From: Syntrophaceae bacterium
GTDB taxonomy: Bacteria; Desulfobacterota; Syntrophia; Syntrophales; UBA2210
Assembly: GCA_030619435.1 (NCBI GenBank)
Contig: JAUXBI010000009.1
Span: forward strand, 1 to 15,208
Direction of reading: 5' to 3'
Length of the DNA: 15,208 nucleotides
Part shown: piece by piece, positions 5,953 through 8,940 of the stretch
Position numbering within the stretch: position 1 is the first letter of the stretch
Layout of the letters: each line of letters begins with the position of its first letter
Notes under the pieces: model-generated
What the model was told of the DNA's origin: nothing
What the model saw: the letters and a program-made list of their open reading frames with translations, nothing else
Database searches by the model: none
Translations under genes and position numbers: made by a program

Positions 5953-5987
5953 TTGTATCCATCCTCCTGAATATTTTAAGAGTCTCT

Positions 5988-6014
5988 GCTATATTTTTTT
6001 TGATTTAAAGTCAA
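5988..6014 (-). promoter_or_regulatory. Putative promoter of the MBL hydrolase-purC operon
   Basis: On the minus strand TTGACT (6009-6014) precedes an A-rich spacer and TATAGC (5988-5993). The 15-bp spacing is short; shifting the -10 to TAGCAG gives 17 bp with a poorer match. It lies about 40 bp upstream of the ribosome site. Confidence 0.35.
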
Positions 6015-6074
6015 CCTATTTCGGGTGTTCGCGGGTGCGAGTTGGGCGTGCATCTGGAATGCGGTTCTGTCGCA

Positions 6075-6440
6075 TCAGGTGAAAGATCCGTCGGCGTGAA
6101 ATGTTATCACTTGTCCTCCTATATTGTGTTCACATCTGATAGTCAGGTTTGCGGGAGAACGGTCGGTGAGAGTGACATCAACGTTGCCTGATTGTTTAAA
6201 GCCATAGTCTTCCAGACCGGCTATTGTGGCCGGAGCTCAAGCGCTACATGGATTATCAAGGAAATAGAGAACGGCGGCTTTGTACGCGCTTTCCCCGACC
6301 GATATGCATTCAGCCCTGTATGCACTGTTTCTATAGGCATTAAACTGTGGAATAGCAATAGCTGCCAGTATGCCGATGATGGCGATCACTATCATAAGTT
6401 CTACCAACGTAAAACCGCAGTCTGTTTTTCTGTCTGACAT
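6075..6440 (-). CDS. Type IV pilin-like protein with an in-frame TGA at codon 68 (candidate selenocysteine, or interrupted)
   Basis: The N-terminus has a nine-residue leader ending in Gly, then [18 protein letters not shown], the class III prepilin signal and hydrophobic helix with the invariant Glu at mature position 5. The frame ATG 6440 to TGA 6237 gives 67 residues. Beyond that TGA the same frame stays open for 53 codons (to 6075) and reads pilin-like: [20 protein letters not shown], then two beta-strand-like stretches ending in [14 protein letters not shown]. The full 121-residue frame is normal pilin length. The TGA sits in Cys65-Ser-Ala-UGA, a CXXU pattern. A ribosome site (AGGAAAGG) and a strong sigma-54 promoter lie upstream, arguing that the gene is live. 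Selenocysteine insertion, a natural short pilin ending at 6237, and a nonsense mutation or sequencing error are all possible. No pilus assembly genes are in the window. Confidence 0.6.
6200..6222 (-). other. Possible bacterial SECIS-like hairpin downstream of the pilin TGA
   Basis: Counting from the base after the TGA, nt 20-23 (GTCT) pair with nt 27-30 (AGAC) around a GGA apical loop at nt 24-26. An outer stem, nt 15-19 with 33-37, is separated by a two-base bulge. The distance to the loop and the G at its first position agree with the general bacterial SECIS pattern as I recall it. A competing CCGGC/GCCGG hairpin (plus-strand 6217-6221 with 6229-6233) shares the 5' strand and may be more stable, so the fold is uncertain. 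Confidence 0.3.
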
Positions 6441-6487
6441 TTCGTTTGCCTTTCCTGGTTATTCAGACAAATTATACTTAGGAATTT

Positions 6488-6503
6488 AGCAATTTACATG
6501 CCA
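6488..6503 (-). promoter_or_regulatory. Sigma-54 (RpoN) promoter of the pilin gene
   Basis: The minus strand reads TGGCAT, five bases, TTGCT, against the consensus TGGCAC-N5-TTGCW. The invariant GG (6501-6502) and GC (6489-6490) are exactly 10 bp apart. A start site near 6477 would give a leader of roughly 37 nt before the ATG at 6440. RpoN control is established for pilA in Pseudomonas and Geobacter. Confidence 0.65.
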
Positions 6504-6782: not shown

Positions 6783-6992
6783 ATGCTGGAGACTAGACCA
6801 TATGTAAGGGTGAGGTATTTAGACAACTCATACGATTACATTGTCGGTATGGTGCTTGACAAGCTTATACGTGCAAACAAGATAAAACAGTTCTATCGTT
6901 ACTCCTCAGAAAAGTGGGTCACTCTAGGTATTGATCCCATAAGGGGGATGGGTGGAATCTACAGCGGCGCAGAGAGAAGAAGTGTGCATTAG
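6783..6992 (+). CDS. Small conserved protein, GSU3473-like
   Basis: A 69-residue protein starting at ATG 6783 behind a very good ribosome site (GGGAGGTGAT). The N-terminal half reads VRVRYLDNSYDYIVGMVLDKLI, followed by KIKQFYRYSSEKWVTLGIDPIRG and a C-terminal YSGAERRS motif. That order (short beta-rich start, leucine-rich helix, WVxxGxDPIRG, Y-x-G-x-ERR tail) matches a family of small deltaproteobacterial proteins I know as GSU3473-like; their function is unknown. It is divergent from the pilin gene across a 342-bp gap and convergent with the HD-domain gene, whose stop is 17 bp away. The family name is from memory and moderately sure; that it is a real gene is more certain. Confidence 0.7.
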   Translation: MLETRPYVRVRYLDNSYDYIVGMVLDKLIRANKIKQFYRYSSEKWVTLGIDPIRGMGGIYSGAERRSVH

Positions 6993-7009: not shown

Positions 7010-7588
7010 CTATACAGAATCTCCCTTCAACCCTATCTCGCCGGCAACTTCACGCATGCCGTTAATGGTGTCTTCGATAAGCTCTCCTATTTCAACTCCC
7101 AGCATCTCAGCGCCCCTCTGGATGATTGAGCGGTCCACACCGGCCGCGAACGAAGGGGTCTTCCATTTCTTCCTGACCGATTTTACACTCATGTCCATGA
7201 CGCTTCTGGAAGGTCTTACCATGGCGTTGGCGGTGATGAGACCTGTCATTTCATCGATCGCGAAAAGTGTCTTTTCCAGGACGCTCTCAGGTTTTACATC
7301 CGAGCATATTCCCCATCCATGGGATACAACAGCGCGTATATACTCCTCCGGCCAGCCATATTCTTCAAGGATCTTCCTTGTCATGGTGCAGTGCTGATCC
7401 GGAAAACGTTCATAATCAAGGTCATGAACGAGGCCGATAATTCCCCATTTGTCTTCATCTTCACCATGTTTCCTCGCACAGTAACGCATAACCCCTTCCA
7501 CCGAATAGGCATGCTTGCGCAGGCTGTCGTTTTCGTTATACTCATGCAGAAGTGCGAGGGCCTCATTGCGGGCAGGTATCTTCTTCAT
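7010..7588 (-). CDS. HD-domain phosphohydrolase family protein
   Basis: A 192-residue HD-superfamily protein. Metal-binding candidates are His26 (RKHAYSVE), His55-Asp56 (GLVHDLDYERFP), His90 (VVSHGWG) and Asp112 (FAIDEMTGLI), the usual H...HD...D order. Such proteins hydrolyse phosphate esters or nucleotides, or act as metal-dependent housekeeping hydrolases; no substrate can be inferred. The frame is open upstream into rsmB, but the real start is ATG at 7588. It lies two bases after the rsmB stop, with the GGGAG ribosome site inside the end of rsmB, indicating translational coupling. It is the last gene of the fmt-rsmB-HD unit. Confidence 0.82.
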   Translation of the reverse strand: MKKIPARNEALALLHEYNENDSLRKHAYSVEGVMRYCARKHGEDEDKWGIIGLVHDLDYERFPDQHCTMTRKILEEYGWPEEYIRAVVSHGWGICSDVKPESVLEKTLFAIDEMTGLITANAMVRPSRSVMDMSVKSVRKKWKTPSFAAGVDRSIIQRGAEMLGVEIGELIEDTINGMREVAGEIGLKGDSV

Positions 7589-7590
7589 AA

Positions 7591-8940
7591 TTATTCTCCC
7601 TTCCTTTTTAATGCTGCCCCGAAAAAGCCATCTGTTCCATGGCGGTGAGGAAATGTTCTGAACATTCCATGCCTGTCCAGCATGTCGGCAGGGGAGGTAG
7701 TTTGGCGGATGCATTCGAAATCAGGGTGAACGGCCAGAAATTCCTTTACGACATCTTCATTCTCCGCAGCCGAAATGGTGCAGGTACTGTACACCATAAA
7801 TCCCCCCTTCTTCAAGTAAGGGACGGATCGATTCAGTATCTCTTTCTGGAGAGGAGGAATTTTTTTGAGATTTTCCGGTGTGGTATTCCATTTGATCTCG
7901 GGATTTCTCCTCAATGTCCCCATGCCGGAGCAGGGGACATCCACAAGAATCCTATCAAATTTTCCGCGAAGATCATCTAGTGGAGCTTTTGTTGCATCGT
8001 GGACGACTGGTTCGATGATTGTTGCACCCAGTCTGATAGACAGGGCCTGTGACATTTCGACTTTTTTGCGGCTTATATCCATCGCCACTATCCTGCCCCT
8101 GTTCTGCATCAATTCAGCCATATGCGTCGTCCTTATGCCTGCGCCGGCGCACACATCCAGCGCCATCTCCCCCGGTTTCGGATCTAAAAGGAGGGATATC
8201 AACTGGGACGCCTCGTCCTGAATCTGCATATATCCTTCTTCATGCAGCCGCATCTTGCCGACAGGTGAAGGCAGGTCGGAGAGCACGATGCCGTCGGGTG
8301 AATATCTTGAGGGCGCCGTGCCACAGCCGCAATCTTCGAGCATTCCGATCAGGTCGGGCCGCGTGGTTTTCAGCCTGTTCGCCCTGATGGTAAGGGGAGG
8401 TATCTCATTATTACTCTTGCACAGTGCAATCGTATCTTCAATACCAAGTTGTTCCACCCACATTTTTACAATCCATAATGGATGTGAGTGTAATACAGAT
8501 ATGTAGAGTAGAGGATCTTCATCAAAGAGAGGATATTTTATCCTGTCCATCCTTCTCACCGCGTTCCGAAGGATTGCGTTAACCAGGTTTGAACGTCCGG
8601 GATACATCCTCTTCGTCATCCTGACCGCTTCGTCCGTCGCGGCATACGCCGGCACCCTGTCCGCAAACATCATCTGGTAGAGTGCCACTCTCAGTATATT
8701 GCGTATCCCCGGCTCCATGCTTTCGAAGTCACCTGTGTACAGGACGCGTATAACCCAGTCCAGGCGGTTTCTGAGACGGAGAGTTCCATAGACAATCCGG
8801 GTCAAAAGCCCCCTGTCCTGTGTATTGGCAAGGATATCCCTTGAAAGGTATGCGTCCAGAAGGGGCTGCGCGAAGGCCTGCTTCTCCTCTACTCTGTTCA
8901 GGATCTGAACAGACAGATTGCGTGGGTTATTCTTTATCAA
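7591..8940 (-). CDS. rsmB: 16S rRNA (cytosine-967-C5)-methyltransferase RsmB
   Basis: RsmB methylates C967 of 16S rRNA using S-adenosylmethionine. The 449-residue product has an N-terminal NusB-like RNA-binding domain (about 1-140) and a Rossmann methyltransferase domain. The SAM-binding motif is DVCAGAG at 262-268, a variant of the usual DxCAAPG. The two family cysteines are Cys337 in VDVPCSGMG (motif IV, product release) and Cys387 in YSTCTIS (motif VI, catalytic nucleophile). The N-terminal NusB-like domain distinguishes it from other Nol1/Nop2/Sun enzymes. The start is TTG at 8940, the first in-frame start after an upstream stop, with a weak ribosome site. It lies 22 bp downstream of fmt, an arrangement common in bacteria. 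Confidence 0.95.
   Translation of the reverse strand: MIKNNPRNLSVQILNRVEEKQAFAQPLLDAYLSRDILANTQDRGLLTRIVYGTLRLRNRLDWVIRVLYTGDFESMEPGIRNILRVALYQMMFADRVPAYAATDEAVRMTKRMYPGRSNLVNAILRNAVRRMDRIKYPLFDEDPLLYISVLHSHPLWIVKMWVEQLGIEDTIALCKSNNEIPPLTIRANRLKTTRPDLIGMLEDCGCGTAPSRYSPDGIVLSDLPSPVGKMRLHEEGYMQIQDEASQLISLLLDPKPGEMALDVCAGAGIRTTHMAELMQNRGRIVAMDISRKKVEMSQALSIRLGATIIEPVVHDATKAPLDDLRGKFDRILVDVPCSGMGTLRRNPEIKWNTTPENLKKIPPLQKEILNRSVPYLKKGGFMVYSTCTISAAENEDVVKEFLAVHPDFECIRQTTSPADMLDRHGMFRTFPHRHGTDGFFGAALKRKGE

Follow-up and report, generated by a model that had tools for sequence, protein, structure and literature searches.

A type IV pilin gene of the Syntrophales with a conserved in-frame UGA: a probable selenocysteine pilin

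Known pilins, known selenoproteins, and the UGA gene

Among pilins of known structure, the closest in fold to the protein described here is PilA4 of Thermus thermophilus (PDB:6xxd). PilA4 is 32% identical to the UGA pilin and is not known to be a selenoprotein. For the N-terminal half, the best PDB sequence matches are chains of Geobacter geopilin domain 1, or PilA-N (PDB:9egp, 7tgg, and 2m7g). (In Geobacter, PilA-N and PilA-C/Spc form a two-part pilin.) Ordinary PilA-like pilins share the leader, the N-terminal helix, the length, and the C-terminal layout (the listed sense matches are 42-54% identical over 67-100% of the query), but their genes have no in-frame UGA. In bacterial selenoproteins with a CXXU motif, as in this gene, the UGA lies three codons after a cysteine codon. 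Those that we know of are enzymes or thioredoxin-like proteins and none is a pilus subunit; to our knowledge, no selenocysteine pilin has been described.

We analyzed a stretch of 15,208 nucleotides from a Syntrophaceae bacterium (the window). A type IV prepilin gene with an in-frame UGA lies at 6075..6440 on the minus strand; read through, it encodes 121 residues, with the proposed selenocysteine at position 68, and ends with a TGA at 6075..6077. The start codon is the ATG at 6440-6438, and a putative Shine-Dalgarno-like sequence, AGGAAAGG, can be read directly before it (6449..6456, minus strand). Codons 1-67 (6240..6440) encode the leader MSDRKTDCG, the N-terminal helix, and Cys65 (codon at 6246..6248), which is the partner residue in the motif C-S-A-U. 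From the prepilin motif, cleavage is expected before Phe10. The in-frame TGA is codon 68 (6237..6239), three codons after Cys65, and 53 sense codons lie behind it (6078..6236) before the second TGA at 6077-6075.

A sequence-only reading of the window had described a canonical prepilin N-terminus, a TGA at codon 68 preceded by Cys-Ser-Ala, and a frame open for 53 more codons that read like the C-terminal half of a pilin. The coordinates and the description were right, with the gene on the minus strand. The N-terminus matches the prepilin motif family PF07963 (38.9 bits, cut-off 21.2) and TIGR02532 (37.1, cut-off 16.3), and it has a class III leader with the GFTLxE motif. By itself, the open frame gives weak support, because 7.9% of mononucleotide shuffles of the stretch behind the TGA also stay open for 53 codons. 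It is conservation that carries the case.

As for the part behind the TGA, AlphaFold2 modeled the read-through protein (on the alignment A3, described below) with a pLDDT of 85.3 and a pTM of 0.67. The model has a helix at residues 12-62, a short helix at 73-77, and strands at 87-92, 100-105, and 111-114, so that all three modeled strands lie in the half behind the UGA. Cys65 and residue 68 are in the modeled loop 63-72. The best fold match in the PDB, and the only one with E < 0.001, is Thermus PilA4 (TM 0.66 over 115 columns). We predict that the read-through protein folds as a complete type IV pilin, in line with the earlier description of its C-terminal half. A product that ended at the UGA would have nearly the same length as geopilin domain 1. 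The UGA gene, however, continues in frame with 53 codons that are under selection (see below), and on this ground we do not count it among the Geobacter-type short pilins (PilA-N).

Conservation and setting of the gene in related genomes

We searched 155 genomes of the order with a single sequence and then with a profile. (Sampling by class gave the same number of genomes.) The frame with one internal TGA is present in five of them, which are separate genomes from two families and three genera. Besides the window's own genome (G000), these are two genomes of the same genus (G004 and G005, with 92 and 68% identity to the window's gene), one from another genus of the same family (G011, 51%, the most distant), and one from another family (G061, 62%). 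When these genes are read as DNA, codon 68 is TGA in all five and never TAA or TAG. (In G061 it is codon 69, with one extra codon at the front.) The terminal stop varies, being TAA in G004 and TGA in the other four; in G011 (L114, G011:C53, around 7537-7940) the frame ends with TGA TGA. The sequence-only reading had warned that a simple nonsense mutation or a sequencing error would give the same picture. The same TGA in four further genomes (92, 68, 62, and 51% identity) rules out a base error or a fresh nonsense mutation.

In searches with a profile (A2) that was built from 11 rows, the five TGA genes score 199.6-219 bits, and the next listed place, which has no stop, scores 125.9 bits. Because the five genes are among the 11 rows, this gap marks them as a distinct type but does not count as an independent search. 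We also sampled 395 genomes from the phylum (the window's own included), scoring at most 11 candidates per genome, and found no further member at E 1e-36; one sense pilin reached this threshold.

The codons behind the TGA seem to evolve as protein. In each of the ten pairs of genomes, synonymous changes outnumber non-synonymous changes in this stretch (Nei-Gojobori-type counts), with one-sided Fisher p values from 1.5e-2 (G004-G005) to 3.2e-8 (G005-G011). (The pairs share branches, the counts are rounded, and comparisons that involve G011 have saturated synonymous sites.) In every genome, each of the two alternative frames of the stretch is interrupted by 3 to 5 stops, and the pilin frame contains none. 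By these counts, the codons behind the TGA encode protein and are under purifying selection. The sequence-only reading had named mutations downstream of the TGA as evidence against its proposal, and what we found is a conserved frame. Selection on those codons also led us to reject the idea of an ordinary stop followed by dead sequence.

The two sides of the UGA, and the DNA beyond the gene, differ in how closely the genomes agree. G000 and G005 agree at 99% over the 110 bases that follow the pilin gene (window 5965-6074, compared with L112 in G005) but at only 66% over the coding part that follows the UGA. Between G005 and G061, which belong to different families, dS is 0.60 behind the UGA versus 1.60 before it. 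This pattern looks like the exchange of C-terminal pilin cassettes by recombination.

A sigma-54-type promoter site, TGGCATGTAAATTGCT, lies 63 nt before the ATG (6488..6503, minus strand) and is the only match in the window, with 0.03 expected. Such a site precedes the gene in four of the five genomes (at -63 in G000, -55 in G004, -63 in G005, and -103 in G061); the exact pattern is absent in G011, where there is a near match by eye. The pattern is not confined to the UGA type: 46 of the 122 loci examined contain it (a count over whole loci, not per position). Because many of these are loci of ordinary pilins, the site is a sign of a pilin gene and carries no information about selenocysteine.

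The neighbors vary. In G061, the UGA gene has an ordinary pilin gene as its neighbor on one side; on the other are genes for a PilS-like kinase and a sigma-54 response regulator. This is the classical setting of pilA. In G000, G004, and G005, the nearest recognized neighbors encode a metallo-beta-lactamase-fold protein and an HD-domain protein, and their order is the same in all three. A search of the neighbors in G011 gave PAS, radical SAM, UbiA, methyltransferase, and YjbR genes and no pilus gene. The window's genome has ten places with a prepilin motif: eight on C122 and C219, two contigs that carry type II secretion genes, one by a gene for a PilB/GspE-like ATPase (C196), and the UGA gene itself. 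Three of the other nine were named by the family search. On the plus strand of the window, 6783-6992 is an open frame of 69 residues with 80% identity in G004; it has no match among the G005 frames compared and none in Pfam. A scan of viral contigs gave 18 partial pilin matches.

The cysteine, the selenium genes, and the candidate hairpin

A protein search found 7072 relatives, of which 120 were listed. Among those listed, 26 have fewer than 100 residues (67-85), and all 26 end in C-X-X-stop, with the stop taken from the end of the protein. The endings are CSA (13), CSH (3), CSV (3), CAV (2), and CGA, CLA, CSN, CTA, and CAA (1 each). (The cluster P0006, which is among the 26, apparently contains the short frame of the window itself.) P0028 is a 67-residue relative ending in PCLA whose longest contig has 2,586,994 bases, so a long contig from a carrier of P0028 seems to exist. 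The alignment A3 combines the window's protein with 92 of the 120 listed relatives and omits P0086, P0091, and the 26 short relatives. In A3, a cysteine is present at position 65 in 8 of the 8 rows with U or Trp at position 68 and in none of the 85 other rows. The sense PilA-like pilins in the alignment thus lack this cysteine.

It had been proposed from the sequence alone that homologs with TGA or cysteine at the column of codon 68 would support selenocysteine and that other residues would argue against it. The expectation of TGA held (five of five genes), but that of cysteine did not, and other residues do occur. There is no CXXC pair at this column in A1 or A3. The sole cysteine there is a lone one in P0043, a distant sense pilin with threonine at position 65, and it sits beside an alignment gap. 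(Cysteine relatives are common in selenoprotein families, but they are not obligatory.) P0004 (78% identity) has leucine at the column and tyrosine in place of Cys65, so both members of the pair are gone. Seven relatives from metagenomes have tryptophan at the column (P0005, P0007, P0011, P0012, P0014, P0018, and P0023). Because two short proteins from the same subgroup, P0083 and P0096, end at exactly this point, the tryptophan may be a TGA that was translated with genetic code 4 on short metagenome contigs.

The genes that the sequence-only reading had named for a check of the genome are all there: selA (602 bits), selB (352), the tRNA-Sec gene selC (77), and selD (386) score above their curated cut-offs in the window's genome. 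The selD gene (L068, G000:C70:3086-4015) has an in-frame TGA of its own, in the context GAGUACKIG, with a strong hairpin behind it. In the four other carrier genomes, we sought selA and selD. All five carriers have selA. At E 1e-40, selD is present in two of the four others and was not found in G004 and G005, which counts mildly against selenocysteine or reflects draft assemblies. The sel genes are not specific as a correlation test, because 137 of the 155 genomes of the order have selA. A general change of the genetic code is unlikely, since TGA is the ordinary stop for 5 of the 14 clear genes in the window.

A SECIS element is plausible: behind the UGA there is a candidate hairpin that is only weakly better than synonymous shuffles. 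In the window, it lies at 6200..6222 (minus strand; positions 18-40 from the U of the UGA), has the apical loop GGA, and is reached by 4.3% / 5.5% of synonymous shuffles. All five genes have a stem-loop with a G among the first two loop bases within positions 7 to 40. The loop is GGA in G000, G004, and G011, as it is in three of the four SelD genes of the group, and GGUCU in G005 and G061, which resembles the loop of E. coli fdhF. In addition, GCCGGTCTGG is identical in G000, G004, G005, and G061; it also encodes a conserved A-G-L. The observed energy was reached by 4.3% (G000), 9.0% (G004), 32.7% (G005), 50.7% (G061), and 27.0% (G011) of codon-synonymous shuffles, and by 7.7% for the sum. The four SelD genes, whose elements we presume to be true, gave 4.0-10.5% in the same test. 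Because presumed true elements reach just 0.04-0.105, the test is blunt and has little power.

Hairpin energies are -6.3 to -10.8 kcal/mol for the UGA type versus 0.0 to -9.1 for sense pilins (the 8 of 15 loci that could be placed), and two of these eight (L017 and L018) have shuffle fractions of 0.015 and 0.040, which is better than the UGA genes. For the window's gene alone, the sequence that follows the UGA has unremarkable thermodynamic z-scores (0.50, -0.95, and -0.56), and there is no Rfam match in the UGA pilin loci. As a further SECIS control we tried FlpD (PF02662): it matched in three of the five genomes, with no in-frame TGA, and had no match in the other two.

Alternative readings and what the gene would mean

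We put the probability at roughly 0.85 that this gene encodes a selenoprotein of a new family: a type IV pilin whose alpha-beta loop carries CXXU. The suggestion of a selenocysteine pilin, which the sequence-only reading had raised, is supported by the conserved TGA, by the selection behind it, by the coupling of the cysteine to the TGA, and by the sel genes.

Other readings of the UGA are less likely. If it were a true stop, the gene would make a short pilin of ~58 mature residues like geopilin domain 1, and the rest would be a relic or untranslated. This would fit the geopilin chains among the best sequence matches (the 2m7g chain has 61 residues) and the listing of the 67-residue frame as a protein in databases. 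But the codons behind the TGA are open in all five genomes, evolve as protein in all ten pairs, and complete a pilin fold in the model, and the codon is always TGA; we consider a true stop very unlikely. Slightly easier to accept, though still distinctly unlikely, is that the UGA is read through as an amino acid other than selenocysteine, such as tryptophan by near-cognate decoding or a changed code. Tryptophan would be a natural residue at this column if the seven metagenome relatives encode it with TGG. Against this, TGA is a normal stop in the window, the genes for selenocysteine are present, and the ends of P0083 and P0096 hint that the tryptophan may be TGA in code 4. Also, tryptophan would leave the strict cysteine at -3 unexplained.

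The same cysteine is left unexplained if the gene has split into a two-part pilin, with the UGA as the end of part one and a new start nearby for part two. The likeness of the N-terminal half to geopilin domain 1 agrees with such a fission, and in G005 and G061 a separate start would be possible at an in-frame GTG that lies 3 codons behind the TGA. However, in G000, G004, and G011 the next 30 codons offer no in-frame start (ATG, GTG, or TTG), and in the model the two halves form a single pilin domain. We consider a fission highly improbable. Finally, since the assembly of the window's genome is a draft, in 247 contigs and 80.63% complete, a nonsense mutation, a pseudogene, or a base error in one assembly might be suspected. 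Conservation refutes this: the same TGA occurs in five genomes and the same end in all 26 short listed protein clusters. We regard the chance of such an artifact as negligible.

For the selenocysteine pilin, we infer that the UGA is decoded as selenocysteine, that the subunit is exported and assembled into a pilus, and that the CXXU pair is redox-active. SelB with Sec-tRNA(Sec) would decode UGA 68, guided by the hairpin within the next 40 nucleotides, to give a prepilin of 121 residues. The prepilin peptidase would cut it before Phe10. Cys65 and Sec68 would then form a C-X-X-U pair in the alpha-beta loop, directly after the long N-terminal helix. (In pilins, this loop tends to face outwards.) The pair could form a selenenylsulfide, or a bond to a substrate or a neighbor, and each subunit of the pilus would carry a low-potential redox pair.

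The UGA might conceivably also act as a selenium-dependent length switch, which we think unlikely. Without selenium, the cell would make a short geopilin-like pilin (~58 mature residues), and with selenium, the full-length CXXU pilin. If so, one gene would give two kinds of pilus according to the supply of a trace element.

If the gene does encode a selenocysteine pilin, the residue should have a real use: cells produce major pilins in very large numbers, so selenocysteine in a pilin would be costly. Possible uses are redox linking of subunits, attachment, and exchange of electrons or thiols outside the cell. The 26 listed relatives that are recorded as fragments of 67-85 residues ending at the same place suggest that standard annotation cuts the members of this family in half. 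A selenocysteine pilin would add a structural surface fiber to the range of selenoproteins.
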